Positions 14,301-27,929 of a stretch of 27,929 nt of DNA are shown here, in pieces (position 1 is the first letter of the stretch; each line of letters starts with the position of its first letter). The translations under genes were made by a program, and so were the position numbers. This stretch comes from a virus: IMG/VR virus record IMGVR_UViG_3300006874_000098, positions 1 through 27,929 of that record; one strand, given 5' to 3'. A model generated the notes under the pieces. That model was not told where the DNA came from. It saw only the letters and a list, made by a program, of their open reading frames with translations, and did no database searches.

Positions 14301-15103
14301 CAACATTGAGTGGTGGTGCAGATGCAAAATCAACTAGAAACTACTACTTTGATGCAATTCATACCATGATACCAAACACTATGTTGGAAAGCACACTGAT
14401 TAGTGTTGCAGTAAACACAACTGCAATGGATTCACCCGAAGGATATAGTGGTGGTGGAACTGCTTATCAGATGAGAGCAGCTGGTGATATGATAACACTA
14501 AATGATAATGTGTTCTTCAGTTCACCAAGTATTGTTGCATCTCCTATTAACGAAACAAATGAAATGTCTTCACAGAAATCATTCTATTGTAGAGTTCAGA
14601 TGAAGACACAAAACAGTAATGTGTCACCAGTATTGGATGTTGCAACTATAGGTTGTTTGGGTATTGCAAACAGAATAAATGAGATTAACTCATCTAATGA
14701 TGTTCCACTTGGAACTACCTATATTGCATCTACAGAACCCGATGGTGATAACAACAAGATGGTTTATGTAACGAAGAAAGTTAACTTGAAAACTCCTGCA
14801 ACTGCATTGAGAGTTACAGCTGATATCTTCAACCCACCTACAACGAATGTTAAGTTCATGTATAAAGTGTTAAGAAATGATGAAGCAACTCCTTTCGATG
14901 ATACAGGATGGGAATATTTTAACTCTAACGGTTCACCTGATTCTTCATTAGTATCAGATGCAAGAAACTTTAAAGAGTATGAGTTCACAGTTGAGAACCT
15001 ACCTGAGTTTGGTGCATTTGCAATTAAAGTTATAGGACAAGGAAGTAATACCTCAGTAGTGCCACTCGTATCTGCACTTAGATGTATTGCACTTGCAACA
15101 TAA
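8375..15103 (+). CDS. Giant baseplate/tail structural protein, DUF4815 type (2242 aa)
   Basis: The N-terminus (about 1-75), with NISPYYDDYNEDKNFHKVLF and SRPLQARELTQSQSILQNQV, is the conserved head of DUF4815 proteins, large virion proteins of T4-like marine phages. Further along are SSSGASG/QTSNA beta repeats (about 490 and 850-890), a long beta-rich body, a proline-rich hinge (about 1541-1600, many PEP/PSPP units), a DPLAQSFLVDASGGMFLTSVGIYF domain after it (about 1630), and a glycine-rich GTY...GAI module (about 1843-1914) shared with gp8. It lies directly after gp8, where T4 has gp9, gp10 and gp11, so I infer a peripheral baseplate role, possibly holding fibres. It is the largest protein in the window and nothing resembling gp9-gp12 follows. 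The exact function is not established. Confidence 0.8.
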   Translation: MAEKTDLNISPYYDDYNEDKNFHKVLFRASRPLQARELTQSQSILQNQVEKFGDHFFKEGAIVQGAQTDIDMEAYYVKVSAANPNSNGDANVETYRTATHEQYLQGKTSGVIAKCVYSAAETEDESLTLFVKYISQGTNDTHSFAFLANEELQVVTLDGDGNASEVGSNNNDFTVLSADKLPIGRGSLAKITEGIVYVRGFFVKVPAQTLILEKFSGRPSYRIGLSIVESLISSAEDSSLLDNSSGTTNENAAGADRLKISLTLSKFAIDTTDDINFVELARVSQGLIESLVNTTRYGDGITSTLARRTFDANGDFVLRQFTHSLREHLDDTTNRGFYPKRYGGVEDKFVLQISPGKAYVRGYEIDKIGTTNLPFSKARSTKSIQDANTPIRLGNHLRVYNAHSLPEFGNETGSDSIDPFNTCKLWPSVVSSAGTENSEDPIGFARVRDITLREGTDSSNVYTDASVWELSMFDIKMFTKISGTQTNTFTAGDRVVGSSSGASGIVAYTSSGQLYVHDVVGTFTTSDSISSQGSNTGSISTVTAVRNYNIDRVRSITQVPENTSREVFTADVQLDADKTLTGTVIFASGSPTVTGFGTKYVTELKEGDLVYNPSASELLVVSSVTNDTSFTATTNAGGSYQGNATRRRAQLHNQDQTVNIFSWPRNWIASHTPESVTIKKQEVVTISSGSFTVDTDSNGTFLQRNTDNFSIAVVEESSGSPTINNGDILNIEDYTLSVTTSGSGQQLTVSGFDSADNGARLKVTFSASYVNPVNRDKTLRQARCLKVGSARSAGGFYGTAYDDKDISLGVTDAFKIRGIYEGVDGTPLPPNAAFSISSGTPVAYEKIVGQTSDAHAVIITYNGSGATSYFYYTNNNRFQDGETVIGQTSNAIFTVGSISAGSPNITKRYFFDDGQRDGFYDLSKLTRKAGEPAPNNAILVVFDYFTSSGGGDFYDVNSYSSIDYKDIPVYSPSRVDLGGLEPDGTYELSDSVDFRPSVGQVLGSSTFATANADPTSPVDLSNSSTGAVYAPMSYDTGRSYKSSRTGITSSNASVVDTPVNETSVVGDLSFYVGRIDKVFLHRSGEFRLSQGIPALSPTKPKSLDESIEMFELTIPPYTLNLSEIKVRSFEHRRYTMSDIGKINNRVTNLERITSLSLLEKDTQTKQILDSDGFDRFKSGFLVDNFRGHRVGDTQHPDYSISIDNKLGAMRPKNFTQFFDIELNTGASGSYQKTGDLITLPYTEQTYINNTKASRQINVNPYNVFAFIGNIKLTPATDIWQDTEQLPEVRVNREGNFDALSGINGIGTVWNNWQTTWVGEPRTVSSQVTATSNGQWSGDPAQGGEWQAGFQLTREITETPETQTRTGVTTSVVEDFVETRNDRIVSVSVVPFIRARTIEIDATNLKPNTNHFIFFDGIRVDQYVRPFSGSFSQDGGTGASSGVKTNGNGRLRAYFDIPSNSAQRFPTGQRDLRITSSFYNLTNPASSGNTQYQAQGLLQSSQTEIVSTRNGRIVTETTSENRDFSSRGEILNSTAIDTSATPYPSPPEIPPAAQIPVDNTSVPEPVSEPTLPTPEPAPQWSPIAAPVPEPSPPIPTVTEPVVEDLWVEPWFERRDLARLPIWRREFQEDQDPLAQSFLVDASGGMFLTSVGIYFATKDESIPVRVEIRNMVNGYPGQVILPFSDVTKNPSEVTTSVDGSVATTFTFDSPVYLEQGKEYCFVVLSNSDKYEAFISRMGEPDLITGQTIAEQPATGSLFMSQNASTWTAEQTDDLKFHLKHAKFDTTKYADLRFDNAALPVANLQDNPIESFSGQNYVKVYSYTHGMYTTSSNVTVSGVTGNMTGCVVNIGGASLVTGSLPADGTYTGIATTTDVGSSGQNCTVDIVVSSGAITSTKISNPGLSYTTDNTLTVTNFGGVSETNSVTIAIDTVAETLGGIPVDAINQTFTSISNIGIDSFCVIPDVSSYDFVSGYTAVESTLSGGADAKSTRNYYFDAIHTMIPNTMLESTLISVAVNTTAMDSPEGYSGGGTAYQMRAAGDMITLNDNVFFSSPSIVASPINETNEMSSQKSFYCRVQMKTQNSNVSPVLDVATIGCLGIANRINEINSSNDVPLGTTYIASTEPDGDNNKMVYVTKKVNLKTPATALRVTADIFNPPTTNVKFMYKVLRNDEATPFDDTGWEYFNSNGSPDSSLVSDARNFKEYEFTVENLPEFGAFAIKVIGQGSNTSVVPLVSALRCIALAT

Positions 15104-15104
15104 G

Positions 15105-15317
15105 ATGTCAGAGTATAGTAGAGTAGAAGGACATTCAAATCTTATTAGAGATGAAGAAACCACTGCTATCGTTAATACCGATATCAATGCATACTACATG
15201 GCTAAGAGAAGAAAAGAAATTTTTATGACTCAGGTAAATGAAATAAATACATTAAAGAAGGAAGTAACGGACATTAAAATCCTTCTTCAAAAAATGGTAG
15301 AAAAATTAAATGGCTAA
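15105..15317 (+). CDS. Small coiled-coil structural protein (70 aa)
   Basis: The start chosen is ATG 15105, 1 base after the giant gene's stop, giving MSEYSRVEGHSNLIRDEETTAIVNTD; an earlier in-frame ATG at 15087 lies inside the giant gene and is less likely. The VEGH..LIRD...AIVNTD head is a pattern found in small proteins of marine T4-like phages. Residues about 43-68 (NEINTLKKEVTDIKILLQKM) have hydrophobic residues in heptad spacing, a probable short coiled coil for oligomerisation. The 3' end overlaps the next fibre gene by 8 bases, so the two are translationally coupled. Likely a baseplate or fibre-attachment adaptor; the role is inferred from position only. Confidence 0.75.
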   Translation: MSEYSRVEGHSNLIRDEETTAIVNTDINAYYMAKRRKEIFMTQVNEINTLKKEVTDIKILLQKMVEKLNG

Positions 15318-16890
15318 GACAGTAGACAACCACAGCACAATCGAAGACTTTAGAAGACGTTATAACGAACTTGCAACAGACGTTGGTGATATATCAGGCC
15401 TAAGAGACACTATTAAAAACTTTAATGGTGGTTCAATTGTAGATGCTGTAAATGCAATCGAAGATAAAACTTTTTTCTTTCAAGAATTTATTTATACTGC
15501 AACTTCAGGTCAGACTACATTTAGTGGTGATGATGAATTCGAAAATGAACTAAAATTTAAAAGAAACAGAATACAGGTTTTCAAAAACGATCAACATTTA
15601 TTAGAGACAGATGATTATATTATCGCCTCACCATTAGGTGCATTTCATACTTCTATTGTTTTAAATGTAGCTGCATCTTTAAATGATAAGATTACTATCT
15701 ATTCATATACTGGTTCCTTTGAGGGAACAGCTAATGCAGCTAATATTATAGGGTATTTTTCAGAGTCTGCTGCAAACACTATTTACAATACCAATGATAA
15801 CGGTGTTATTCTAAATGGTGATAACTCTACACCAACTACTACATTACAAGCAGGTTACACACTTCAACTTGCAGGTAAAACATATGCAGAAGAAGATATT
15901 ACACTTGCAAGTGGTAAGACATTAACTGCACCTATTATTACAGATGGCACTGCACAAATCACTGGTGGAGTCGGAACTTCATTCTCAAGTATTACCTCAA
16001 CAAGTTTTGTGGGTAATCTAACAGGTAACGTTACATCCAGTGGTCTATCAACATTTTCAAATGCTGACATTAATGGTGGTGCTATTGATGGAACAACAAT
16101 TGGAGCAACAACTACTTCAACTGGTGCATTTACAACTGTTAGTGCAAGTGGTGGTTTTAGTGGTAACCTAACAGGTAACGTAACTGGTAATGTAACTGGT
16201 AACTTGACAGGTAATGTTACAGGTAATGTTACAGGTGATCTGACTGGTGATGTTACAGGTGATGTAACTGGTAACTTGTCAGGAAACGTAACTGGTAATG
16301 TTACAGGTAATGTAACAGGTAATGTCACGGGGACAGTTTCAAGTATTTCTAATCACAGCACAACTAACTTAACAGAAGGCACAAATAAATACTACACTGA
16401 TGCAAGGGTAGACTCAAGAATGAGTGGTAAGGATTTAAACTTCTTTGATGATGTTAATTATACCACAACCCCAACAGCAGGTCAAATTCTAGTATGGGAC
16501 AACGCAAATCAATATTGGGAACCTGCTGATAATTCAACAACCTCAGATAGTGTTACTGAAGGTTCAAACAATTTATACTTTACGAATGCTAGAGTTTCTA
16601 CAAGAGTTGACACAATACTTAATCACTCTAATCACAGTAATATTACTGCGACTAAAGTCGGTGATGAAATTAGATTGTCTGCTGCATCACAATATGGTGA
16701 CTCGGATGTTCAATCTTATTTGAGTGGTGGGGCAGGACTTGCATTGAGTGGTTCAGGAAGTTTTTCTGTAAATACAAGTAATGGTGTGAAAATTTCAGGT
16801 GATAATGTCGTATTAGATTACGAGACTACGTCCACTGCACCATCAAGTGTTGGTTCAACATCTACAGGACACCTTTGGTTTGTAATTTAA
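15310..16890 (+). CDS. Tail fibre protein with tetrapeptide-repeat array (526 aa)
   Basis: An N-terminal helical segment (about 1-50, TIEDFRRRYNELATDVGDI) probably anchors it. It is followed by a beta module (about 57-136, QEFIYTATSGQTTF...RIQVFKNDQHLLETDDYI) similar to the aromatic 'GQT-F...V-NG' modules of phage baseplate and fibre proteins. Residues 285-341 are 14 tandem G-N/D-V/L-T units, expected to form an elongated beta shaft. After this come two LTEGTNKYYTDARV / VTEGSNNLYFTNARV units (about 350-435) and a C-terminus ending GHLWFVI. This is the classic modular tail fibre architecture of marine myoviruses. The start overlaps the 70-aa gene. Binding target unknown. Confidence 0.85.
   Translation: MAKTVDNHSTIEDFRRRYNELATDVGDISGLRDTIKNFNGGSIVDAVNAIEDKTFFFQEFIYTATSGQTTFSGDDEFENELKFKRNRIQVFKNDQHLLETDDYIIASPLGAFHTSIVLNVAASLNDKITIYSYTGSFEGTANAANIIGYFSESAANTIYNTNDNGVILNGDNSTPTTTLQAGYTLQLAGKTYAEEDITLASGKTLTAPIITDGTAQITGGVGTSFSSITSTSFVGNLTGNVTSSGLSTFSNADINGGAIDGTTIGATTTSTGAFTTVSASGGFSGNLTGNVTGNVTGNLTGNVTGNVTGDLTGDVTGDVTGNLSGNVTGNVTGNVTGNVTGTVSSISNHSTTNLTEGTNKYYTDARVDSRMSGKDLNFFDDVNYTTTPTAGQILVWDNANQYWEPADNSTTSDSVTEGSNNLYFTNARVSTRVDTILNHSNHSNITATKVGDEIRLSAASQYGDSDVQSYLSGGAGLALSGSGSFSVNTSNGVKISGDNVVLDYETTSTAPSSVGSTSTGHLWFVI
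16162..16332 (+). repeat. In-frame 12-bp tandem repeats (GNVT array)
   Basis: Fourteen 12-base units encode G-(N/D)-(V/L)-(T/S), residues 285-341 of the fibre. Units vary at synonymous positions (ggtaatgttaca, ggtaacgtaact and others), so the array is not a fresh slippage product. A short version (GNLTGDVTGDVTGNAS) recurs in the 801-aa fibre. Confidence 0.9.
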
Positions 16891-16899
16891 TGGGACAAA

Positions 16900-18156
16900 A
16901 TGACAGATATATACGTAAATACTGGAACAACCTTTCAACAACCTTATAATGCTCGCCAACCTGCAATTGGTAGGGTTCCTGCGAACTCACAATTAACAGC
17001 TAGGCAACCTGTAAATGCACAAACACCATTTACCTATCAGAATAGGTCACCGTTCACTTATAGAAACCCTGTAAGTGGTCAACAACCTTATATTGCTGAT
17101 GCTCAGCAACCATATCCGTATATTGCTAATGCACAGCAACCCTATATTGCGAATAGTCAAACACCATTTACTTATCAGAACAGACAACCTGCAATAGCAC
17201 AACAACCTTATATTGCTAATGCTCAACAACCATACATTGCTAATGGACAAACTCCATTTACCTATCAAAACAGATACCCTGCTAATGCACAAACACCATA
17301 TATTGCAAATGCAAGACAACCTGCTACCTACCAAGCAAGGTCTCCATTTACATATAGAAATCCTTATATTGCAAATGCTCAACAACCCTATATTGCAAAT
17401 GCTAGACAACCTTCTATTGCAAATGCACAAACACCGTTTATCTATCAGGCTGCCTATCAAGCACAGGGAAATTATCGAGTTCCTTTCACTTATCAAGTTT
17501 CAGTCCCAGCAATAGGAACAGCTCCTGCTAATGGAACACAGCCTGGTGCAAATATAACGGTAACTGAAACAGTTTCAAATTCCACAACAGGCATGTCTTT
17601 GTGGTTGTATAAAAGCACACAAAATGCCCCACCAAGTGTGTTTGCTAATTTTATAATTTATATAAAACTTAATTTTACCTCTACAACTGCTGTAACTATG
17701 TCAGCAAAATTTACAACTGGGCCATATAGTAACAGGTCTCTACCCTCATGGGCTTCCTCTTGGGGGACTTATTATGTTATGTGGTATCTGAGTGTTAGTT
17801 CAACACCTGATACTTTTCAACATGAAACTTCTACATCGTATATGATAGAAGACAATGGGGGAAACCAGTATGTGGCAACTAATATAGGCACCAATAGTGA
17901 TGTTACTTACTCAATTAATGGCACTTCAACAAATTATACTTGGCCAACAACCTCATATCTTGGAACTTATGGATATCAAATTAATATGACAATGGAGCAA
18001 GAAGGTTATGGTGGGGGAACAGCCACTTTTACCCATGGTCATACTTTCAGAATGAATAAATCAGGGTTTCCTACATATACAGGCCCTAGTGTTGATACTG
18101 ATAATGAGATAATAATGCTAAATTCTGGTGGTGGAACACCGCCTCCACCTGTTTAG
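16900..18156 (+). CDS. Octapeptide-repeat fibre/adhesin-type protein A (418 aa)
   Basis: Residues about 13-200 are a run of octapeptide units of the form (Q/R)-(Q/T/S)-P-(Y/F/S)-(I/T)-(A/Y)-(N/Q/R)-(A/N), such as QQPYIANA, QTPFTYQN and RSPFTYRN. The run contains almost no acidic residues, no Cys and no Lys; Arg is the main charge and Tyr/Phe recur every few residues. Residues about 216-408 form a separate beta-rich, Ser/Thr-rich domain (NITVTETVSNSTTG, then SLWLYK) that could be a receptor-binding head, followed by a GGGTPPPPV tail. I do not recognise a named family for the repeats. It starts 9 bases after the preceding fibre and its stop overlaps the ribosome-binding site of the second repeat protein. 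A cell-surface binding fibre is inferred from context. Confidence 0.75.
   Translation: MTDIYVNTGTTFQQPYNARQPAIGRVPANSQLTARQPVNAQTPFTYQNRSPFTYRNPVSGQQPYIADAQQPYPYIANAQQPYIANSQTPFTYQNRQPAIAQQPYIANAQQPYIANGQTPFTYQNRYPANAQTPYIANARQPATYQARSPFTYRNPYIANAQQPYIANARQPSIANAQTPFIYQAAYQAQGNYRVPFTYQVSVPAIGTAPANGTQPGANITVTETVSNSTTGMSLWLYKSTQNAPPSVFANFIIYIKLNFTSTTAVTMSAKFTTGPYSNRSLPSWASSWGTYYVMWYLSVSSTPDTFQHETSTSYMIEDNGGNQYVATNIGTNSDVTYSINGTSTNYTWPTTSYLGTYGYQINMTMEQEGYGGGTATFTHGHTFRMNKSGFPTYTGPSVDTDNEIIMLNSGGGTPPPPV
16936..17499 (+). repeat. 24-bp coding repeats of protein A
   Basis: Roughly 23 in-frame octapeptide-type units (some shortened to 6 or lengthened to 10 residues) with P at the third position. 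Units alternate between the YIANA and FTYxN classes. Base differences are mostly synonymous. Confidence 0.85.
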
Positions 18157-18168
18157 GAGATATAAGTA

Positions 18169-18939
18169 ATGGCAATTTGGACAGGCAACCCTACACCATA
18201 TACGTTTCAACAACCGTATCCGTATATTGCACAGCAACCAGCACATGCAAGACAACCTGCAACTTATCCATTTATTGGATATGCTCCTGCTAGTGCAAGA
18301 CAACCTTCTACTTATCATTTAAGAACACCGTTTACATATCATGCAAGGTCACCGTTTACGTATCATAATAGGTATCCTGCTAATGCCCAACAACCGTATA
18401 TAGCTAATAGTCAGACACCGTTTACCTACCATTCAAGACAACCTTCTACTTATCAGGTTCCATATATTGCAAATGCAAGACAACCTTTTACGTATCATGC
18501 AAGGTCACCGTTTACGTATCATAATAGGTCTTCAATAGATTATCAGGTTCCTTATATTGCAAATGCAAGACAACCGTCTACCTATCATGCAAGGTCACCG
18601 TTCACTTATCAGGCAACTGGTAGAACACCGTTTACCTATCAAGCAAGGTCACCGTTTACCTATAGAAACCCTGTAAATGCACAGCAACCTTATATTGCAA
18701 ACGCTAGACAACCCTCTACGTATCAAGTTGTATATCAAGTTCCTACCATTTATGCAACTCCGTATATCTATACTGTTCCTTATATTGCAACAAGACCCAT
18801 TGGGCCTCTTGCAAAAGTCAAGGGTGTTTTTGTAAATGATAGTGGAACTTTAAGGAAGTTGGATGAAGTTTATGTAAATGACAGTGGAACTGCAAGAAAA
18901 ATTCATCAATCAGTTCCAACTGCACAGTATCAAGAATAA
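18169..18939 (+). CDS. Octapeptide-repeat fibre/adhesin-type protein B (256 aa)
   Basis: Residues about 14-207 use the same octapeptide repeat as the gene before it, with a higher share of His-containing units (FTYHA, FTYHN, STYHA). The C-terminus (about 213-246) carries two copies of a short beta unit, KVKGVFVNDSGTLRKL and DEVYVNDSGTARKI, of the V-x-V...G-x-W/R type found in phage fibre proteins. There is no separate large head domain, unlike protein A. The start is fixed by AGGAGATATAAGTAATGG, with AGGAG overlapping the stop of protein A. Likely co-assembles with protein A or is an alternative fibre; this is inference. Confidence 0.72.
   Translation: MAIWTGNPTPYTFQQPYPYIAQQPAHARQPATYPFIGYAPASARQPSTYHLRTPFTYHARSPFTYHNRYPANAQQPYIANSQTPFTYHSRQPSTYQVPYIANARQPFTYHARSPFTYHNRSSIDYQVPYIANARQPSTYHARSPFTYQATGRTPFTYQARSPFTYRNPVNAQQPYIANARQPSTYQVVYQVPTIYATPYIYTVPYIATRPIGPLAKVKGVFVNDSGTLRKLDEVYVNDSGTARKIHQSVPTAQYQE
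18208..18789 (+). repeat. 24-bp coding repeats of protein B, with a 37-bp perfect direct repeat
   Basis: In-frame octapeptide units cover most of the gene. One 37-base stretch at 18337-18373 is repeated exactly at 18493-18529, 156 bases away (52 codons, in frame), so recombination between the copies would delete or add whole units without a frameshift. Confidence 0.85.
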
Positions 18940-18944
18940 AAGGA

Positions 18945-18952
18945 CATAAATA
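18945..18952 (+). promoter_or_regulatory. Late-promoter-like octamer before the 110-aa gene
   Basis: CATAAATA followed by GTAAT, one mismatch to TATAAATA, ending 5 bases before the ATG at 18958. The spacing is the same as at gp25, so the expected transcript start falls on the ATG. AAAAGGA just upstream can serve as the ribosome-binding site only for read-through transcripts. Confidence 0.55.
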
Positions 18953-18957
18953 GTAAT

Positions 18958-19290
18958 ATGGCTATTATTGCAAACCTCTACATAGATCAAGGAACAGACT
19001 TCAGTATCACTGTTGATGTAACTGATTCTGCTGGTGAGATATTGGAATTAGATGATTACACTGCAGCTGCACAGATTAGAAAGACCTATAGTTCTTCGAC
19101 AGTGAGTGCAACTTTTGCTACATCAATTGCAGCGTTGGCAGGTCAAGTAACTATTTCTTTAACTGATACTCAGACATCTGCACTTGAAGCAGGAAGATAT
19201 GTATATGATTTAAATATCACTAGTGCTGCAGGAGTAGTCACAAGAGTAATTGAAGGACAGGCAATCATAACGCCTGGTGTAACAAGGTAA
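18958..19290 (+). CDS. Small virion-associated beta protein (110 aa)
   Basis: The start NLYIDQGTDFSITVDVTDSAGEILELDDYTAAAQIRKTYSS and the end TQTSALEAGRYVYDLNITSAAG...RVIEGQAIITPGVTR match a common phage virion pattern ('DQG.DF...V...G...DL.gY.a..qiR......AG.Y.YDl......V.ri.eG...v.p.vT'), an immunoglobulin-like beta-sandwich protein encoded near tail fibres. Its length is normal for that group. It probably forms part of the fibre or baseplate collar. The next gene begins 4 bases after its stop, suggesting an operon with the 72-aa gene and the amidinotransferase. Confidence 0.72.
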   Translation: MAIIANLYIDQGTDFSITVDVTDSAGEILELDDYTAAAQIRKTYSSSTVSATFATSIAALAGQVTISLTDTQTSALEAGRYVYDLNITSAAGVVTRVIEGQAIITPGVTR

Positions 19291-19294
19291 TAAT

Positions 19295-19513
19295 ATGTCA
19301 GGAAATATTAAAGCAAGAGTTTTACAAACAAACACTATTCGTGCAAAACAGGTTGCAATTGGTAACTCAGCAACTAATGTAAACTTGTCTGCAAAATCTA
19401 TCAATGAACTTGCAGATGTTAATGTGGTTGAAACAGATGATGGACTTCTTTCTTATGATGCAGCTACGGATAAGTGGGTTACAAAAACTGTTTTAGATGG
19501 TGGAACATTCTAA
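19295..19513 (+). CDS. Small fibre-type protein ending in DGGTF (72 aa)
   Basis: SGNIKARVLQTNTIRAKQVAIG at the N-terminus and SINELADVNVVETDDGLLSYDAATDKWVTKTV near the C-terminus follow the 'L.DV.......G.lL.YD....kW' pattern of phage fibre proteins. The last five residues, DGGTF, recur exactly at the end of the 510-aa fibre and as DGGTL in the 86-aa fibre. It has too few residues to be a shaft; it may be a fibre tip, connector or chaperone. It lies 3 bases before the GTG start of the amidinotransferase. Confidence 0.7.
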   Translation: MSGNIKARVLQTNTIRAKQVAIGNSATNVNLSAKSINELADVNVVETDDGLLSYDAATDKWVTKTVLDGGTF

Positions 19514-19516
19514 TCA

Positions 19517-20419
19517 GTGAGTCCTACTTTATGGTCATGTGATGAGTGGTCACCCCTAAAAGAAATCATTATTGGTTCACTCAAGGGTCACGAACAACTC
19601 AAAAAATATTCTTACTACATTAAAGATATTTCTATAATAAGAGATATCTTAGATGAAGCACAAGAAGGGTTAGATACCTTTCAATCTATTTTAGAAAAAC
19701 TTAACATAAAGGTTTACAGACCACATGGTTTCTGTTATAATGTAAGAGACTGTGCTGTAGTCATAGAAGATACAATTCTAGAATCTTCGATGAGATATAA
19801 AGAAGAATACGGTTATCTTGAAACATTAAAACCTATTTTTGAAGAAAAGGTTTCAGAGGGTGCAAAATTAATTACTGCACCAAAACCTACATGGAGACCT
19901 TGGGTAAATCCAAACGAACCTATTTTTGATGCAGCTAACATATGTCGATTAGGTAAGGACATATTAATCAGTATAAATGAAACTGCAAATGAACATGGAA
20001 GAGATTGGGTCTTTAAAACATTCAATCATTTAAATCACCATCATATAGTTCAAAAAGAAAGAATATCACACATTGACACTACCTTTGTTCCAATATCTAA
20101 CGATACAGTTATGATAAATCAGGAAAGAGTAAAAGAGATACCATCCGTATTTAAAGATTGGAAACATATCTTTATCAATATTGAGGACATGAATAAGGAA
20201 AAACCACCTATTGTGACGACAAGATGTGCATCGGCATTTATTGGAATGAATACCCTTTCTATAGATAATAATACTGTATGTGTCAATGAAAGGGAAGTAA
20301 AATTAATAGAAAAATTAGAAAGACATAACTTTAATTGCATACCTATACCCCTCAAACAAACTAGAACTCTATCAGGTGGACTGCATTGTTGCACTTTAGA
20401 TTTACTTAGAACATCTTAA
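19517..20419 (+). CDS. Amidinotransferase (glycine/inosamine amidinotransferase family)
   Basis: A 300-residue enzyme of the guanidino-group modifying superfamily, which transfers the amidino group of arginine to an amine acceptor through a cysteine adduct. Visible family motifs: CDEWSPLKEIIIG at 8-20; NVRDCAVVIEDTILESSMRY at 75-94; FDAAN at 137-141 (FDAAD in human AGAT, around the catalytic Asp); HIDTTF at 185-190 (catalytic His in HIDATF of AGAT); and GGLHCCTLDLLR at 287-298, with Cys291 in the place of AGAT Cys407. All catalytic positions look intact. The start is GTG at 19517, the only plausible start before CDEWSPL, and has no clear ribosome-binding site, so translation probably depends on coupling to the preceding gene (3-base gap). 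The acceptor is unknown; glycine, a sugar amine or a fibre-associated amine are possible. Deiminase or hydrolase activity cannot be ruled out. Confidence 0.85.
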   Translation: MSPTLWSCDEWSPLKEIIIGSLKGHEQLKKYSYYIKDISIIRDILDEAQEGLDTFQSILEKLNIKVYRPHGFCYNVRDCAVVIEDTILESSMRYKEEYGYLETLKPIFEEKVSEGAKLITAPKPTWRPWVNPNEPIFDAANICRLGKDILISINETANEHGRDWVFKTFNHLNHHHIVQKERISHIDTTFVPISNDTVMINQERVKEIPSVFKDWKHIFINIEDMNKEKPPIVTTRCASAFIGMNTLSIDNNTVCVNEREVKLIEKLERHNFNCIPIPLKQTRTLSGGLHCCTLDLLRTS

Positions 20420-20422
20420 TGT

Positions 20423-20430
20423 TATAAATA
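20423..20430 (+). promoter_or_regulatory. T4-type late promoter before the 510-aa fibre
   Basis: A perfect TATAAATA just after the amidinotransferase stop. Its predicted start would give a leader of about 129 bases, by far the longest in the window. Confidence 0.75.
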
Positions 20431-20435
20431 TTAGT

Positions 20436-20564
20436 ATCAAATCAAGGTGTCATTCAGTGAGACACGACCCACATAGTGAGTGGAGAGTATATAATGTATC
20501 TTTCTCGGAAAGTGAAGAGAAAAAATCTTAATTAAGCTTTTTAAAAAATTTCAAGGAGAAATAA
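20436..20564 (+). promoter_or_regulatory. Long structured 5' leader with a small ORF
   Basis: Downstream of the late promoter are three possible stem-loops: GTGTC/GACAC (20447-20465), CCAC/GTGG (20469-20483) and CTTTC/GAAAG with a TCG loop (20500-20512). A 13-codon ORF (MYLSRKVKRKNLN, 20494-20535) has GGAGAG six bases before its ATG. The real gene has its own AAGGAGAAATAA site. The function is unknown; stems are short. Confidence 0.35.
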
Positions 20565-22097
20565 ATGGCTACAGTAATTCAAATTAAAAGGTCGACTGGT
20601 TTATCCGCTCCAACGACTTCTGACTTATCAGAAGGAGAATTGGCGTATGTCCAAGACCGTGCAAACAGTGGTGCTTCGGCAAAATTGTTTATTGAATCTG
20701 TTGATTCTGATAACTCTACTCCATTAATACACGCAATCGGTGGTAAATACTTCACCGATATGTTGAGTGGTTCATCTGCAACACCTGCTAACTTTAAAGT
20801 TGGTAACGGTGCTACATCAGGTGGTTCTATTCAGTTGATGGAAGATTCAGACAACGGTGTTCACTCTGTAGGTTTGAAAGCTCCTGACTCAGTTGCTGCT
20901 GATCTTACTTTTGTTCTACCAGGCTCAGACGGTAGTGCAAACCAAGTATTAGCAACAGACGGTTCAGGTAACCTTTCATTCTTATCAACAACTTCAACAC
21001 TTGCTGGTGCAACAGACTCAGATATCTCTGCTCCTTCATCAGGACAAGTTCTTGTTCATGATGGTTCAGATTCATTTGACAACGTAAGTATCTCAGGTGA
21101 CGCAACACTTGCTTCAGATGGTTCTCTAACAATTTCTGCTGGTGCAGTTGAGAACTCAATGTTAGCAGGTTCAATCTCATATGATAAGATTGACTTCTTA
21201 ATTGACGAAGACAACATGGCATCTGATTCAGATGTTAAAGTTCCTTCTCAACAGTCAGTTAAAGCATATGTTGATTCACAATTAACAGCACAAGATGTTG
21301 ACTTCGCTGGTGACAGTGGAACAGGTGCAGTTGATTTAGACTCACAATCATTGACTATTGCAGGAACAACTAACGAAATCGTTACTTCTGCTTCAGGTCA
21401 AACTTTAACAGTTGGTCTTCCTACTAATGTCACAACTCAAGGTAACTTGACAGTTGGTGGATATCTTGCAGGGCCTGCTTCCTTCACAATCGACCCAGCT
21501 GCAGTTGGTGACGATACAGGAACAGTTATCATTGCTGGTAACCTACAAGTAGACGGAACAACAACAACAATCAATTCAACAACAGTTGCAATTGATGACT
21601 TAAACTTCTCAATAGCTTCAGACGCTGCTGATTCAGCTGGTGCCAACGGTGCTGGTATTACAATCGGTGGTGCAGGTGCAACCTTCACATATACCCATGC
21701 AGACACTTCATGGAATATGAACAAGTCATTGAACATCACAGGTGGTTTATCACTAAGTAGTTCAATTACTGAGATTGATGGTGCAGCTCCAACTGCTGGA
21801 CAACTATTAATTGGTAATGGTTCTAATGGAGACATGGAACTTGCTACTTTAACTGCTGGTGAAGGACTTGACGTAACTAACGCTGACGGTGCAATCACAT
21901 TATCAGCTGAAGATGCTACTGCTAGTAATAAAGGTATTGCTTCATTCTCAGGTTCATACTTCACTGTAACTTCAGGGGATGTTGCTATCAACAATGCTAC
22001 AACATCTGCAAAAGGTATTGCAAGCTTTGATTCATCTAACTTCACAGTAAGTTCAGGTGCTGTCTCTGTTTCAGCTATAGACGGCGGAACATTTTAA
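20565..22097 (+). CDS. Modular tail fibre protein (510 aa) ending in DGGTF
   Basis: The N-terminus MATVIQIKRSTGLSAPTTSDLSEGELAYV is the common phage fibre head ('IQ.kRS....P....L..GELAy') also seen in the next gene. The middle contains IDEDNMASDSDVKVPSQQSVKAYVDSQL (about 215-245), a unit repeated twice in the 801-aa fibre, and a GNLQVDGTTTTINSTTVAIDDLNF module (about 325-350) found in two other genes here. The C-terminal part has two KGIASF...F.V.SG.V units and the terminal DGGTF. No enzyme motif is seen. Expressed from its own late promoter with a long leader, so probably a major fibre subunit; a receptor-binding role is inferred. Confidence 0.82.
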   Translation: MATVIQIKRSTGLSAPTTSDLSEGELAYVQDRANSGASAKLFIESVDSDNSTPLIHAIGGKYFTDMLSGSSATPANFKVGNGATSGGSIQLMEDSDNGVHSVGLKAPDSVAADLTFVLPGSDGSANQVLATDGSGNLSFLSTTSTLAGATDSDISAPSSGQVLVHDGSDSFDNVSISGDATLASDGSLTISAGAVENSMLAGSISYDKIDFLIDEDNMASDSDVKVPSQQSVKAYVDSQLTAQDVDFAGDSGTGAVDLDSQSLTIAGTTNEIVTSASGQTLTVGLPTNVTTQGNLTVGGYLAGPASFTIDPAAVGDDTGTVIIAGNLQVDGTTTTINSTTVAIDDLNFSIASDAADSAGANGAGITIGGAGATFTYTHADTSWNMNKSLNITGGLSLSSSITEIDGAAPTAGQLLIGNGSNGDMELATLTAGEGLDVTNADGAITLSAEDATASNKGIASFSGSYFTVTSGDVAINNATTSAKGIASFDSSNFTVSSGAVSVSAIDGGTF

Positions 22098-22124
22098 TAA
22101 CACTTAAGTCTATAGGAGAAGCTC

Positions 22125-22952
22125 ATGGCAACAGTAATACAATTTAAAAGAAGTTCCACTCAAGGTGCAACACCTACTACAGGTGACTTGTCTTTGGGGG
22201 AACTTGCTGTCAATACCTATTCAGGTAGATTCTACACTGAAAAGAACGATGGTAGTGCAGCTGTTGTAGAGGTTGGTTCTAATCCATCAACCTTAACTGT
22301 GAATGATGCATTTTCCTTTCCTACAAGTGACGGTTCCTCAAATCAGATTTTAAAAACTGATGGTTCAGGAACTTTGAGTTGGTCAGACCAACCTTCATCA
22401 GGTGTAAAAACCTACACTTATACTATTACAACTACAACTACTTCTATTAGTGGTTCAGATGATAATAGTGATACTCTTGTATATACCTCAGGGTATGAGC
22501 AAGTGTATATCAATGGTGTGAAGTTGGTTGGTGGTGGTGCAGACTATACTGCAACCAATTCTTCCACAATCACTTTAACGGAAAACGCATTAAGTGGTGA
22601 TGTTGTTGAAGTTATTGCAATCACAAGTGCAGCTAATCTTGTTCAAGGTTACTTCACTGAGAGTTCATTTTCAACTACATCAAGTGATCAAATATTATCT
22701 GCAAATGCATTAGCAAATAAAGCAGTTAAATATGTGATTTCCGCCACTCACGCATCAGCAGGCACTCACGCAGCTGAAGTTTTATTGGTGAACAATGGTA
22801 GTAGTGCATACTTTGTGCAATACGGTGATGTTTATTCAGCATCATCGTTGTTTACATTGAATGCAGATGTTTCAGGTGGTAATGCTAGATTACTAGTTAC
22901 TCCTGCAAACACAGATACTACAATCGATACATTCCAAATCAGGTTATCATAA
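22125..22952 (+). CDS. Tail fibre protein with shared C-terminal domain (275 aa)
   Basis: The head MATVIQFKRSSTQGATPTTGDLSLGELAVNT pairs it with the preceding gene as a paralogue. Residues about 100-168 hold a beta module with YINGVKLVGGGADYTATNSSTITLTENALSGDVVEVIAI, the 'NG..L..g.DYT' type common in phage fibres. Residues 199-275 form a domain (KYVISATHASAGTHAAEVLLVNNGSSAYF...LLVTPANTDTT) also present at the ends of the next two genes. TATAGGAGA lies upstream as ribosome-binding site. Likely a fibre or fibre-tip subunit. Confidence 0.8.
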   Translation: MATVIQFKRSSTQGATPTTGDLSLGELAVNTYSGRFYTEKNDGSAAVVEVGSNPSTLTVNDAFSFPTSDGSSNQILKTDGSGTLSWSDQPSSGVKTYTYTITTTTTSISGSDDNSDTLVYTSGYEQVYINGVKLVGGGADYTATNSSTITLTENALSGDVVEVIAITSAANLVQGYFTESSFSTTSSDQILSANALANKAVKYVISATHASAGTHAAEVLLVNNGSSAYFVQYGDVYSASSLFTLNADVSGGNARLLVTPANTDTTIDTFQIRLS

Positions 22953-22965
22953 GGAGATATGAATA

Positions 22966-23376
22966 ATGGCTAAAACGAAAGCATTTGAAATAGCAGAACT
23001 TATTCGTCATCTTCGATATGATGCTGATAACGATGTTATTACAACAGAAAAAGCTACTCGGGATAAAAACAAAAAGAGAGGTAATGCAACTAGAACATCC
23101 ACAGATGAATTTGCATTAGACACTTTCACAAAAACTGATTACAGAGCTGCAAGATATATTGTAGCAATGTCAGATGGTGCAAAGTTTCACTCTACAGAAG
23201 TTGTTTTGGTTCATGATGGTAGTTCTGTAACAATGACACAATATGGAACACTTAAATCTCATTCATTGGCATCCTTTGATTCAGATATTAGTGGTTCAGA
23301 TGTTAGATTGTTAGTAACACCAGCGTCTACCTCATCAACAGTTATCAAATATGATAGAACAGTTGTAGAAGCATAA
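22966..23376 (+). CDS. Small fibre protein with shared C-terminal domain (136 aa)
   Basis: An N-terminal polar and basic segment (FEIAELIRHLRYDADNDVI, then TRDKNKKRGN) of about 55 residues is joined to the same 77-residue C-terminal domain (60-136, RYIVAMSDGAKFHSTEVVLVHDGSSVTMTQYG...RLLVTPAS) as its neighbours. This looks like a minimal anchor plus head. It starts 13 bases after the previous stop with AAGGAGATATGAATAATGG. The intrinsic terminator after it ends this transcription unit. Exact role unknown. Confidence 0.78.
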   Translation: MAKTKAFEIAELIRHLRYDADNDVITTEKATRDKNKKRGNATRTSTDEFALDTFTKTDYRAARYIVAMSDGAKFHSTEVVLVHDGSSVTMTQYGTLKSHSLASFDSDISGSDVRLLVTPASTSSTVIKYDRTVVEA

Positions 23377-23399
23377 CGATAAGTTTTGACAAAAACTTT

Positions 23400-23428
23400 G
23401 AAAGGGGACTTTATGTCCCCTTTCTTTT
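23400..23428 (+). terminator. Intrinsic terminator
   Basis: GAAAGGGGAC / GTCCCCTTTC form a perfect 10-bp stem with a TTTAT loop, followed by TTTT, 24 bases after the preceding stop. Confidence 0.9.
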
Positions 23429-23441
23429 ACCTATAAAAAAC

Positions 23442-23449
23442 TATAAATA
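23442..23449 (+). promoter_or_regulatory. T4-type late promoter after the terminator
   Basis: A perfect TATAAATA followed by GTAT, 29 bases before the ATG at 23479. It restarts transcription directly behind the terminator. Confidence 0.82.
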
Positions 23450-23478
23450 GTATTTGTAATTAGAGAGATAATTAGAGT

Positions 23479-24219
23479 ATGGCAACCAAAAAGAATTTAA
23501 TAGCTGATATTGGAATAGAGACACACGGTAGTTTGACTGTAGATGGTAATGCAACCATCACAGGAAACCTAACAGTAAATGGAACCAGTAATACAGTGGA
23601 ATCCACAACCACATCGGTTGAGGATAACCTTATTGAGCTTGCAAATAATAACACTAGTTCTGATACACTTGATATTGGTATATACGGTAACTATGACGAT
23701 GGACTAGCAGATGGGGCATCAGAGTATACAGGATTCTTTAGAGATGCAAGTGATTCCACATGGAAACTATTTGATGGATTAGAAGTTGAGCCTGGTTCTA
23801 CTGTTAATATTTCAGGGTCAGGATTTGCAAAAGCAGCTTTAGAAGTTGGTGACTTATCATGCACAACCATTACTGCATCTGATTCACTTACTATTGACAG
23901 TTTAGTAGTAGATTCCTCAAGTGGTTCTACATTAGAAACTACAAGTGAGACAGATTTAGATTCTTGGGCAACTTCTACATATAGAAGTGCAAAATATGTT
24001 CTTCAAGCAACCGAAGGAACTAAATACCATACAACAGAAGTTATAGTTATACATGATGGAAGTGATGCATACTTCACACAATTCGGTGAAATTATCACAA
24101 CTTCATCATTGTTTGAGGTTTCGACCTCAGTAGAAAGTGGAAGTGTAAAATTAAAAGTTACACCTGCTTCTGCAAATTCAACAGTTTTTAAATGGTCAAG
24201 AACTTTAATTAAAATTTAA
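23479..24219 (+). CDS. Tail fibre protein with shared C-terminal domain (246 aa)
   Basis: Residues about 17-100 carry the module GSLTVDGNATITGNLTVNGTSNTVESTT, then EDNLIELANN...DIGIYGNY and FFRDASDSTWKLFDGL, which recurs in the 510-aa and 801-aa fibres and is widespread in marine phage fibres. Residues 169-246 (KYVLQATEGTKYHTTEVIVIHDGSDAYFTQFGEI...KLKVTPAS) are the shared head domain of the two genes upstream. So it combines a shaft module from one fibre class with a head from another. Own late promoter; AGAGAGATAATTAGAGT leader with weak ribosome-binding site. Confidence 0.8.
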   Translation: MATKKNLIADIGIETHGSLTVDGNATITGNLTVNGTSNTVESTTTSVEDNLIELANNNTSSDTLDIGIYGNYDDGLADGASEYTGFFRDASDSTWKLFDGLEVEPGSTVNISGSGFAKAALEVGDLSCTTITASDSLTIDSLVVDSSSGSTLETTSETDLDSWATSTYRSAKYVLQATEGTKYHTTEVIVIHDGSDAYFTQFGEIITTSSLFEVSTSVESGSVKLKVTPASANSTVFKWSRTLIKI

Positions 24220-24241
24220 TACCTCTTGACGATTAAGAAGT

Positions 24242-24249
24242 GATAAATA
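24242..24249 (+). promoter_or_regulatory. Weak late-promoter-like octamer
   Basis: GATAAATA, one mismatch to the octamer, 37 bases before the ATG at 24287. It lies between ACGATT (24229) and AATCGT (24266), an inverted repeat with a 31-base spacer. Confidence 0.4.
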
Positions 24250-24286
24250 AAAGAGTTAAAACCACAATCGTTAGGACACACAAACT

Positions 24287-24547
24287 ATGGCAACACAAAA
24301 TACCTTTGTTATAGAGTATGGATTGTCGGTTGGTTCCACTGAGGTCATCAATTCGTCAGGTAAGTTGCAGGCAGCTGCAATCTCAGAGTTGGATACAGAT
24401 AATCTCTCAGAAGGTTCCACGAATCAATACTTTACAAACACAAGAGCGAGAGGTGCAATATCACTTGCATCAGGTGAAAGTAACTTGAGTTACGACTCTT
24501 CAACTGGTAAAATATCGTTACCACAGGTTGATGGAGGCACATTATAA
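24287..24547 (+). CDS. Small fibre protein ending in DGGTL (86 aa)
   Basis: NTFVIEYGLSVGSTEVINSSGKLQAAAI at the start resembles the start of the next gene (NFIIKNGLTVGTTEVITSSGSITSAAV), so the two are paralogous at the N-terminus. Then comes one LSEGSTNQYFTNTRARGAISLAS unit, YDSSTGKISLPQ, and the DGGTL end shared in form with two other genes here. It overlaps the 801-aa gene by one base (TAATG). It may be a truncated duplicate, a connector, or a partner needed for folding of the large fibre. Confidence 0.75.
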   Translation: MATQNTFVIEYGLSVGSTEVINSSGKLQAAAISELDTDNLSEGSTNQYFTNTRARGAISLASGESNLSYDSSTGKISLPQVDGGTL

Positions 24548-26952
24548 TGACAGCTAAAAATTTCATAATCAAAAACGGTCTTACTGTTGGAACAACAGAA
24601 GTCATCACTAGTTCAGGTAGTATTACATCAGCTGCAGTAGGAGATGCTCTAAACGAAGCAATTGCAGATAAGATTGGTGGTATTATTCAGGGTTCAGGTT
24701 CAACCACAGTAACCTATGATGATACAAACGATACTATCACCATTTCATCAACTGGTAAGACAGAAGAAGAGATTCAAGATATCGTTGGTGCTCAGTTAGT
24801 AACCAACGGTTCACATACAAATATTACTGCATCTTACGATGATTCAGGAGACGGTGCAGTTGACCTTTCTATCTCTGATACAGTTATCAGAGGAAAGATT
24901 AGTGCAGGTGGTGATTTAAGTTATGATAACAGCACAGGTGTTGTATCATTTACAGAAAGAACAGATGCAGAAGTTAGAGGACTTATTAGTGCAAGTGGTG
25001 ATTTAAGTTATGATAACAGCACTGGTGTAATTTCATTTACTAACGATGCTGGTGATATAGAATCAGTAATCGCTGGAACTGGTTTAACTGGTGGTGGAAC
25101 TTCAGGTGATGTTACATTAAGCATTGACCTTAAAGATGAAGATAACATGGCTTCAGACTCTGCAACTCATGCCGCTTCACAGCAATCAATTAAAGCATAC
25201 GTTGATTCACAAATAGCAAGTAAAGATAACACAGACGAAATTACAGAAGGTTCAACTAACTTATACTTTACAAATGCAAGAGCAGATGCTAGGATTACAG
25301 CGGCATTAATTGACGAAGATGACATGTCATCAGATAGTGCTACTAGAATCCCTTCACAACAAAGTGTTAAGGCATATGTTGATTCACAAGTTGATACAGT
25401 AGATGCATTAAGTGAACTAAGTGGTGATACTGATGATGTATCAGAAGGTTCGACTAATTTATATTATACTGATGCAAGAGCCAGAGCGGCCATAAGTGCA
25501 TCAGGAGATTTAAGTTATAACAGTTCAACAGGTGTTGTATCATACACAGAACCTACAATGTATGCCGATTCAGATGCCAGAGGTGCAATCTCAGTCACAG
25601 ATTCAGGTGGAGATGGTTCACTTGCATATAATTCATCAACAGGTGTAATTACATATACAGGCCCTAGTGCATCAGAAGTTCAAGCACATATTACTGCTGG
25701 AACTGGTGTGTCGGTTTCAAGTGGTCAAGTTAGTATTGGTCAGGCAGTAGGAACTTCAGATTCACCCACATTTGCAGGTGTAACACTTACAGGTGCATCA
25801 ACAGTTTCAGGACATGTTCTTCCAAGTGCAGATGTTACCTACGACTTAGGTTCAGCATCGTATCAATGGAGAGACGTATATGTCGGGCCAGGGTCACTTT
25901 ATGTTAACGGACAAAAAGTATTAGAAGATAGTTCAGGAACAATCGTTGTTTCTGCTGATTCAGACCAAAACCTTCAAATGAAAACTGCTGGTAGTGGTGA
26001 CATTGAGTTCAACCCATCAGGCACAGGTATCATTCAAGCAAAAGGAACACTTCAAATGCTTGATGGTGAGTTAATCACCAACAGTGCTGGTAATGCAGTT
26101 GCATTCGGAAACAACATCAGTGTAGATCAAATTGCTTCTAGAAGTGCAGACACAAACTTAGTATTGAGTGGTAACGGAACAGGTAATGTTACATTGAATG
26201 ACGATGTTGTCATCTCAGGTTCATTGACAGTTTCAGGAACAACAACTACAGTTAACTCAGAGACAATCAATCTTGCAGATAACATTCTAAACCTAAACTC
26301 TGATTTTACATCAGGTTCACCTACACAGGATGCAGGTATAAGTGTTTCAAGAGGTGGTTCAACTGCAAAAACATTCTTATGGGATGAAACCAACGATAGA
26401 TGGACAGTCGGTTCAGATAGCATGGTTGCAGGAACATTCATTGGTAATCTAACAGGGGATGTCACAGGAGATGTTACAGGTAATGCTTCAACAGCAAGTG
26501 CTTGGGCAACTGCAAGAACACTAAGTTTAACAGGTGCAGTTACAGGTTCTGCTTCAGTAGATGGTTCAGGTAATGTTTCACTTGCTACAACAGCAACAAG
26601 TGACCCAACATTGACACTTGCAGGAGATGCTTCAGGTAGTGCAACATTTACAAATTTAGGTAACGCAACATTAACAGTTACAGTTGCAAACAATTCACAT
26701 ACACACACTGTATCAAATATTTCAGACTTGACTGTAACAGCAGCTGAGTTGAACTTCATGGATAATGTAACATCTAATGTTCAAACTCAGTTGAATGCAA
26801 AATATGGTAGTGGTTCTAATGCAACACTAGGAACAATTACTACAAGTAATGCAAGTAATTCAGGTGGATATGTAAGAAATGTTTATCAATCTACATCAGC
26901 TCCTACTTCAGGTGATGGTGCAGTTGGTGATTTATGGATTCTCTACTCTTAA
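24547..26952 (+). CDS. Large modular tail fibre protein (801 aa)
   Basis: A tandem series of recognised fibre units. Near the start is KNFIIKNGLTVGTTEV. Three or more GDLSYDNSTGVVSF units occupy about 115-180. Two DEDNMASDS/DEDDMSSDS...SQQSVKAYVDSQ units lie at about 195-285, and two EGSTNLYFTNARA/EGSTNLYYTDARA units at about 235-315. GGSITVSGTT-type strands with LADNILNLNSD, AGISVSRGG and TFLWDETNDRWTVGSD lie at about 555-630, followed by GNLTGDVTGDVTGNASTASAWATARTL (about 635-665). It ends GAVGDLWILYS. The N- and C-terminal types are those of long fibres of marine myoviruses. It is coupled to the 86-aa gene and ends inside a terminator stem. A likely long fibre shaft; tip ligand unknown. 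Confidence 0.85.
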   Translation: MTAKNFIIKNGLTVGTTEVITSSGSITSAAVGDALNEAIADKIGGIIQGSGSTTVTYDDTNDTITISSTGKTEEEIQDIVGAQLVTNGSHTNITASYDDSGDGAVDLSISDTVIRGKISAGGDLSYDNSTGVVSFTERTDAEVRGLISASGDLSYDNSTGVISFTNDAGDIESVIAGTGLTGGGTSGDVTLSIDLKDEDNMASDSATHAASQQSIKAYVDSQIASKDNTDEITEGSTNLYFTNARADARITAALIDEDDMSSDSATRIPSQQSVKAYVDSQVDTVDALSELSGDTDDVSEGSTNLYYTDARARAAISASGDLSYNSSTGVVSYTEPTMYADSDARGAISVTDSGGDGSLAYNSSTGVITYTGPSASEVQAHITAGTGVSVSSGQVSIGQAVGTSDSPTFAGVTLTGASTVSGHVLPSADVTYDLGSASYQWRDVYVGPGSLYVNGQKVLEDSSGTIVVSADSDQNLQMKTAGSGDIEFNPSGTGIIQAKGTLQMLDGELITNSAGNAVAFGNNISVDQIASRSADTNLVLSGNGTGNVTLNDDVVISGSLTVSGTTTTVNSETINLADNILNLNSDFTSGSPTQDAGISVSRGGSTAKTFLWDETNDRWTVGSDSMVAGTFIGNLTGDVTGDVTGNASTASAWATARTLSLTGAVTGSASVDGSGNVSLATTATSDPTLTLAGDASGSATFTNLGNATLTVTVANNSHTHTVSNISDLTVTAAELNFMDNVTSNVQTQLNAKYGSGSNATLGTITTSNASNSGGYVRNVYQSTSAPTSGDGAVGDLWILYS

Positions 26953-26971
26953 TAAATAAGAGTAGATTTTT
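26942..26971 (+). terminator. Intrinsic terminator overlapping the fibre stop codon
   Basis: TCTACTCTTA / TAAGAGTAGA form a perfect 10-bp stem with an ATAAA loop, followed by TTTTT. The 5' arm contains the last codons and stop (26950-26952) of the 801-aa fibre. AATAAATA, one mismatch to the late octamer, lies across the loop at 26951-26958. Confidence 0.88.
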
Positions 26972-26988
26972 GAGGAATTAAAATATAA

Positions 26989-27929
26989 ATGGTTACTGGT
27001 AATCAGAAGGTAAAAACACCCGCAGGTTGGAATTCAACACAAGGTGCTTGGGTTAAGACACCTACAGCTTGGAAAGCAGTAGAACAAGTTTATGTAAAGA
27101 CCCCTACTGGGTGGAATAATGCCTCAGGACAGGACAATGCACAACAACCGTATCCATACATTGCAAATGCACAAACACCTTACATAGCAAATGCTCAGCA
27201 ACCATATCCGTATATTGCAAATGCTCAGACACCATATATTGCAAATGCTCAGCAACCGTATCCATACATTGCAAATGCACAAACACCATATATTGCAAAT
27301 GCACAACAACCGTATCCGTATATTGCAAATGCACAAACACCTTACATAGCACAAGCAAGGCAACCTTCTACTTATCAAAATAGGTCACCATTTACCTATC
27401 AGTTGCCTTATATTGCTAATGCACAACAACCTTATATTGCACAAGCAAGGCAACCTTCTACTTATCAGCATAGGAATCCATTTACATATAGGTTACCTTA
27501 TATTGCAAATGGTCAACAACCTTATATTGCGAATGCAAGGCAACCTTCTACTTATCAAAATAGGTCACCATTTACATATAGGTTACCTGTTATTGCTAAT
27601 GCACAACAACCTTATATTGCTAATGCAAGACAACCTTCTACTTATCAAAATAGGTCACCATTTACATACAGGGTTCCTTATATTGCTAATGCAAGACAAC
27701 CGTTTACATACATAGCATCTTATAGGGTTCCTTATATTGCTAATGCAAGACAACCGTTTACCTATAATGCAAGGTATCCTGCTAATGCAAGATATCCTGC
27801 AAACGGTCAAACACCGTTTACATATAACGCAAGGTATCCTGCTGGTTATCCTGCAAACTATCAAACACCGTTTACATATAACGCAAGGTATCCTGCTGGT
27901 TATCCTGCAAACTATCAAACACCGTTTAC
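26989..27929 (+). CDS. Octapeptide-repeat fibre/adhesin-type protein C (partial)
   Basis: An uninterrupted frame from ATG 26989 (GAGGAA ribosome-binding site at 26972-26977) to the window end, 313 codons with no stop. Residues about 6-43 are three copies of a V-K-T-P-x-x-W unit (KVKTPAGW, VKTPTAW, VKTPTGW), related in type to the C-terminal VNDSG units of protein B. From about residue 50 the octapeptide repeat of proteins A and B takes over: four tandem 18-aa units QQPYPYIANAQTPYIANA, then three and a partial 30-aa unit starting RQPSTYQN, then QTPFTYNARYPAGYPANY units that are still running at the end. So the order of modules is the reverse of protein B. Function unknown; virion fibre inferred. 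Confidence 0.8.
   Translation, partial: MVTGNQKVKTPAGWNSTQGAWVKTPTAWKAVEQVYVKTPTGWNNASGQDNAQQPYPYIANAQTPYIANAQQPYPYIANAQTPYIANAQQPYPYIANAQTPYIANAQQPYPYIANAQTPYIAQARQPSTYQNRSPFTYQLPYIANAQQPYIAQARQPSTYQHRNPFTYRLPYIANGQQPYIANARQPSTYQNRSPFTYRLPVIANAQQPYIANARQPSTYQNRSPFTYRVPYIANARQPFTYIASYRVPYIANARQPFTYNARYPANARYPANGQTPFTYNARYPAGYPANYQTPFTYNARYPAGYPANYQTPF
27142..27357 (+). repeat. Four tandem 54-bp coding repeats
   Basis: Units at 27142, 27196, 27250 and 27304 encode the same 18 residues three times and a one-residue variant the fourth time. The DNA copies differ at several third codon positions (cca/ccg, tac/tat, gca/gct, caa/cag). Confidence 0.95.
27358..27690 (+). repeat. Three and a partial 90-bp coding repeats
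   Basis: Units at 27358, 27448 and 27538, with a partial fourth from 27628, encode RQPSTYQ(N/H)R(S/N)PFTY(Q/R)LP followed by YIANA and QQPYIA(N/Q)A; the fourth carries V where the others have L. Each unit mixes four octapeptide-type sub-units. Confidence 0.92.
27808..27929 (+). repeat. Perfect 54-bp tandem repeat running off the window end
   Basis: The 54 bases at 27808-27861 are repeated exactly at 27862-27915, and the first 14 bases of a third copy reach the window edge. No synonymous differences, unlike the other repeats in this gene. Confidence 0.95.

Follow-up and report, generated by a model that had tools for sequence, protein, structure and literature searches.

A proline- and tyrosine-rich repeat family with a two-residue register, a candidate fiber shaft of uncultivated marine T4-like phages

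The window, a virus record of 27,929 bases from a T4-like phage with a GC content of 37%, carries members of a repeat-protein family that is real, widespread and undescribed in the sources searched. The repeats most likely represent shaft segments of host-recognition fibers encoded in a variable locus known from pelagimyophages, and we estimate a probability of roughly 55% that the 4 proteins of the family, A to D, are structural subunits of host-recognition appendages, with an elongated beta shaft, in uncultivated marine T4-like phages. This reading is based on the strict register of the repeats, the position of the locus, the neighbors of tail-fiber type on both sides, the conserved terminal modules, the A-B fusions, the coevolution of the genes and their confinement to phages; counted against it are monomer models that show no confident repeat structure and the lack of a match to any solved structure.

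The original prediction, made from the DNA letters alone, had placed 3 proteins built from one shared repeat in a single fiber locus, and both the open reading frames (ORFs) and the composition of A, B and C agree with this (Table 1). These genes belong to a locus flanked by VrlC on one side and the neck genes on the other. The gp6-like baseplate protein of the window is closest to that of Methylophilales phage Melnitz (41.5%), followed by those of Pelagibacter phages Mosig and HTVC008M (37% to 39%). In the pelagimyophage study, the "host recognition cluster" with tail fiber genes extends from VrlC to gp14, and glycosyltransferases and hydroxylases are reported within it (PMC7029224). Relatives of the LtfC-like protein encoded downstream of B bear the annotation tail fiber or L-shaped tail fiber assembly. 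The nearest cultured relatives, HTVC008M, Melnitz and Mosig, have the LtfC-like neighbor and no such repeats in the adjacent proteins examined; thus, the shaft would not be universal. The fiber-like protein at 15310–16890 contains many VTGN/VTGD tetrapeptide repeats, in arrays of 12, 24 and 36 nt, through which phrog_430 was also matched. Inside the fiber locus, at 19517–20419, there is in addition a protein of the arginine deiminase/dimethylargininase superfamily (PF02274, E 1.9e-6; phrog_25854), present in 12 related loci.

Table 1. Features of the repeat-protein locus (window positions unless contig L029 is named; aa, amino acids)
Feature	Position	Strand	Description
VrlC-type baseplate/structural protein	8375..15103	+	32–36% identical to HTVC008M VrlC; upstream border of locus
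Fiber-like protein with VTGN repeats	15310..16890	+	phrog_697 structural protein, E 8.4e-15; adjoins A upstream
Protein A	16900..18156	+	418-aa ORF; N-terminal tag MTDIYVNTGTTFQQPY, repeat domain, C-terminal domain
Repeat domain of A	16936..17535	+	Residues about 13–212; even Pro spacing, register
C-terminal region of A	17536..18153	+	Presumed globular; no family match
Protein B	18169..18939	+	256-aa ORF; repeats, then C-terminal module RPIGPLAKVKGVFVNDSGTLRKLDEVYVNDSGTARKIHQ; 20-member alignment
Repeat domain of B	18193..18804	+	Residues about 9–212
C-terminal module of B	18793..18921	+	Four predicted beta strands (two hairpins); phrog_13729 (unknown function), E 1.1e-6
LtfC-like small protein	18958..19290	+	phrog_3304, E 7.4e-24; 50–55% identical to HTVC008M and Melnitz phage proteins
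Protein C	26989..27927	+	313 aa, incomplete, runs off window; N-terminal hairpin-like module, then repeats from residue 51
N-terminal module of C	26989..27138	+	VKTPxGWNxTxGAWVKTxxxWKAVxQxYVKTPxGWNNASGQ; three predicted hairpins, low confidence
Repeat domain of C	27139..27927	+	Continues in contig L029
Protein D	L029 676–1608		Just beyond the window's end

The repeat regions contain, as had been anticipated, no Lys, no Cys and nearly no acidic residues (2, 1 and 0 in A, B and C, respectively), with pI values of about 9.8 to 10. The unit had been described as an octad with Pro about every 8 residues. A spacing of 8 is indeed common, being together with 6 the most frequent, but Pro spacings of 2, 4, 6, 8 and 10 all occur, and the underlying rule is a dipeptide register: autocorrelation of the repeats is high at even lags only. 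At the DNA level, Tandem Repeats Finder detected arrays of 24, 30, 54 and 90 nt in the A, B and C genes. Among 125 nonredundant relatives, 4,179 of 4,254 Pro-Pro spacings (98.2%) are even, compared with 46% in composition-preserving shuffles, and the even spacing is therefore not due to chance. Whereas generic disordered low-complexity segments have no fixed register maintained through indels, strict P[YF][IT][AY] anchors at most 20 residues apart yielded 1,696 even versus 4 odd spacings in 125 nonredundant proteins; a pattern-based collection, which shares some contigs with this set and hence is not independent of it, yielded 2,062 even spacings and no odd ones. Of the odd Pro-Pro spacings that were listed, most belong to globular tails or to divergent parts of A and A-B proteins.

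The 2 registers differ sharply in composition. The one containing Pro (27.6%) is otherwise populated by Gln (18.0%), Arg (12.8%), Thr (12.8%), Asn (10.8%) and Ile (9.1%), and the other by Tyr (22.7%), Ala (18.8%), Phe (9.0%) and Ser (8.5%), so that Tyr and Phe together account for 0.2% of the former and 31.7% of the latter; Val and Gly reach at most 4.2% and 5.3%, respectively, in either register. Within the window, units with the same peptide sequence are separated by about 2.5 synonymous changes per 24 nt, so that the DNA drifts beneath a conserved peptide. The simplest reading of the register would be selection for a two-residue alternation, as in an extended beta strand. A collagen-like triple helix, with Gly at every third position, was rejected, because the repeats lack a period-3 signal and correlate at even lags only. 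Antisense ORFs of 80 to 150 amino acids within the repeats were set aside as a by-product of the stop-free repeat period.

Instead of the 3 proteins originally envisaged, 4 classes recur among the relatives, the additional one, D, ending in ...RWDGxLxQxWPATPxSS. A D gene is present in contig L029, which overlaps the last 525 nt of the window at 100% identity and in which C ends with ...YPVGGGTPPPLPEGFGK and is followed by D; as the overlap consists of repeats, this contig may come from a close relative instead of from the same genome. Alignments of A, B and C revealed conserved terminal modules linked by repeats of variable length, with the 13 aligned A proteins sharing a conserved N-terminus and diverging at the C-terminus, and 4 of the listed relatives (L020, L023, L026 and L028) carry A-B fusions. 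The expectation that A, B and C join the repeat to different partner domains was borne out. B and C each have a short beta-hairpin-like module, C-terminal in B and N-terminal in C, and a profile comparison gave no support for assigning the two modules to one family (hhalign probability of 5%). Searched alone by BLAST against the phage collection, the end module of B gave just a weak match to Pectobacterium phage ZF40. The repeats of C and D share more DNA within a genome (15-mer overlap of 0.092) than between genomes (0.030; permutation p = 0.0005), which implies that these genes evolve together. In 3 loci, a 2OG oxygenase gene is inserted between A and B (e.g., L015, 7237–7986).

Relatives of C have one of 3 endings: a glycine-rich tail, a Hint (intein-like) domain preceded by polyglycine, or a presumed globular domain. 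Hint domains, which follow polyglycine, occur in some A and C relatives only and are absent from A of the window and from C as continued by L029; the C-terminal region of the window's A is also found in the A protein of L008, where a Hint domain comes after it. Matches above the Pfam cut-off were obtained for L035 (Intein_splicing, 1.2e-11; also matched by intein_Nterm of NCBIfam) and L018 (Hom_end_hint, 3.6e-9), and the confident model of the L091 Hint domain (pLDDT of about 95) retrieved the BIL2 domain of Tetrahymena thermophila in a Foldseek search (2.2e-10; TM of 0.84 by target length). Among the 16 Hint sequences listed, the block-B His is present in 15, as is a Gly preceding Cys1. Where the listed sequences finish with HN and a short tail, Asn is followed by a residue other than Cys, Ser or Thr; since no nucleophile follows the final Asn, cleavage rather than splicing would be expected. 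Hint domains attached to phage repeat proteins are in themselves not a novelty, as BFVD already holds viral proteins combining Hint with other repeats, one of which bears the name collagen triple helix repeat. L008 and L022 share a nearly identical Hint domain, with a VDS instead of a VHN end, on A in L008 (6301–7986) and on C in L022 (7830–9092), which suggests transfer between A and C genes.

Relatives are common in IMG/VR, with 36 loci encoding B, 261 stretches encoding C and at least 120 recovered by DNA pattern, the 3 sets overlapping. By contrast, tblastn detected no relative in the 84,980 species genomes of bacteria and archaea that were scanned, and the pattern scan yielded a single array, in a 121-kb contig (L324) of a Sphingobacteriales bin; 4 of the 5 pattern matches in bacterial genomes were not such arrays. 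L324, which matches these phages in gene content and combines C, D and a transferase-like gene, most likely represents a phage contig placed in the wrong bin; at 3845–7814 of L324, D is placed ahead of a Hint-tailed C, followed by the transferase-like gene. In these searches, the relatives are essentially confined to phage contigs, a result in favor of the original prediction, which had named a search for relatives as a check. When A, B and C were searched by BLAST against the phage collection, no record of a cultured phage matched, but the low-complexity filter masks such repeats, making the absence from isolates weaker evidence than it appears. The claim that the unit belongs to no described repeat family held up as well: no Pfam or PHROG family matched the repeats of A, B or C above the cut-off or above chance, no PDB chain resembles them by sequence, and no description of this Pro/Tyr/Arg repeat was found in the literature. 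Matches of the repeats to Cementoin, MbtH, OprD and terminase were below the cut-off or marginal and were rejected.

As components of the virion, the repeat domains would form an elongated, probably oligomeric, beta-structured shaft, with alternate residues facing opposite sides, Pro, Gln, Arg, Asn, Thr and Ile on one and Tyr, Phe, Ala and Ser on the other. The length of the shaft would shift in two-residue steps only, so that the alternation is preserved. The short end modules (N-terminal in A and C, C-terminal in B and D) may join or cap the segments. The tips would be formed by the variable parts at the C-terminus of A and C, some of them equipped with a putatively self-cleaving Hint domain. 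In AlphaFold models, the repeats of B have a pLDDT of about 30, with strands in the C-terminal module only, and the regular part of a C relative consists of short strands of low confidence; because these runs were of monomers only, with shallow alignments of 20 to 22 sequences, a low pLDDT cannot separate disorder from an obligate oligomer.

The original prediction had offered either an elongated fold or a sticky segment. The latter, a flexible Tyr/Arg/Pro-rich tether for attachment to polymers of the host surface or for connecting parts of the phage, would be in keeping with the low-complexity composition, the high pI, the lack of Lys and Cys, and the repeats being predicted as unstructured in the monomer. 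However, nothing in a flexible tether would rule out insertions of 1 or 3 residues or confine all aromatic residues to one register, and the register has been kept through hundreds of length changes. We thus consider such a tether unlikely and, owing to the strict two-residue register, favor the elongated fiber fold, even though the monomer models contain no confident repeat fold. It is also conceivable that the arrays persist mainly as a recombination substrate for shuffling tips and lengths, with little constraint from protein structure. The sharing of repeat DNA between C and D within genomes points in this direction, as does the occurrence of the C-terminal domain of the L025 A protein on C in L033, which may also be an error of metagenome assembly at the repeats. 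Nevertheless, the synonymous drift under identical peptide units and a register that only selection would maintain through length changes of 2, 4 or 6 residues render this explanation highly improbable.

The repeat genes are accompanied by a conserved set of enzymes. In all 70 loci that extend at least 6 kb beyond D, D is followed by 2 genes for 2OG oxygenases, the first of PF13640 and the second of PF13759, each preceded by an unknown gene, and 65 of these loci also contain a glycosyltransferase-like gene with a weak GT8 match. The order after C-D is the glycosyltransferase-like gene, the P4H-like (prolyl 4-hydroxylase-like) 2OG oxygenase, the second 2OG oxygenase and then the neck genes. Conversely, in all 49 glycosyltransferase loci checked, an octad gene is located directly upstream. 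The catalytic motifs are intact, HxD...H being invariant in 22 oxygenases and DDD in the glycosyltransferase-like protein, and the sole PDB profile match of the first oxygenase is a prolyl 4-hydroxylase (P4H) alpha subunit (E 0.0019). At 3247–3807 and 4496–5413 of L029, the cassette downstream of D includes 2 conserved genes whose function is unknown, the second matching phrog_7084.

This synteny and the motifs raise the possibility of a modified fiber, in which the putative P4H-like 2OG oxygenase would hydroxylate Pro (or Asn/Arg) and the glycosyltransferase-like protein would glycosylate the repeats, comparable to extensins or mussel adhesive proteins. Such modification can hold together with the shaft model. 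Yet the loci come from one phage group and partly from near-identical contigs, so that the synteny may reflect common ancestry; cyanophages, too, often carry 2OG oxygenases; and the pelagimyophage GT8 enzymes are read as LPS-modifying in PMC7029224. Given that many contigs are closely related and that similar enzymes also occur in phages in which no repeats were detected, the link between enzymes and repeats is suggestive only, and we regard the modified fiber as rather doubtful. A still less likely scenario unites all these elements: a new elongated fiber fold, governed by a two-residue grammar, that a dedicated phage cassette of prolyl-hydroxylase-like oxygenase and glycosyltransferase, in some phages with a self-cleaving Hint tail, would mature into a hydroxylated, glycosylated, length-tunable adhesive fiber.

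The host-recognition regions of marine T4-like phages, an abundant group, belong to the least annotated portions of these genomes. A widespread repeat family governed by a simple two-residue rule would provide a new building block for fibers, and with it perhaps a new fold and a scaffold of tunable length. It would also supply a substrate hypothesis for the 2OG oxygenases and glycosyltransferases that are now listed as auxiliary genes only.

The family resembles several known systems in part. Like the triple-stranded beta-helix of T4 gp5 (PMC4576200), it combines a phage structural role, here a proposed one, with an octad-based repeat, and its residue alternation would fit a beta strand. Unlike the VxGxxxxx octads of gp5, however, the repeats are Pro-rich, lack the V/G pattern and any sequence match, and have spacings that vary from 2 to 10 instead of a constant 8 residues. 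The pelagimyophage host recognition cluster, as presented in the sections of PMC7029224 considered here, occupies the same VrlC-to-neck position and likewise includes fiber genes, glycosyltransferases and hydroxylases, but the repeat family is not described in those sections, and the cultured relatives sampled have no such repeats in adjacent genes. With Hint/BIL domains, the C-terminal domain of some A and C relatives shares a Gly-Cys-Phe junction of the cleavage type. Finally, extensins and mussel foot proteins contain short Pro/Tyr-rich repeats. The phage repeats are similarly short and rich in these residues, and a P4H-like enzyme is encoded nearby; in contrast to extensins and mussel foot proteins, they have neither Lys nor contiguous Pro runs and follow a strict two-residue register.
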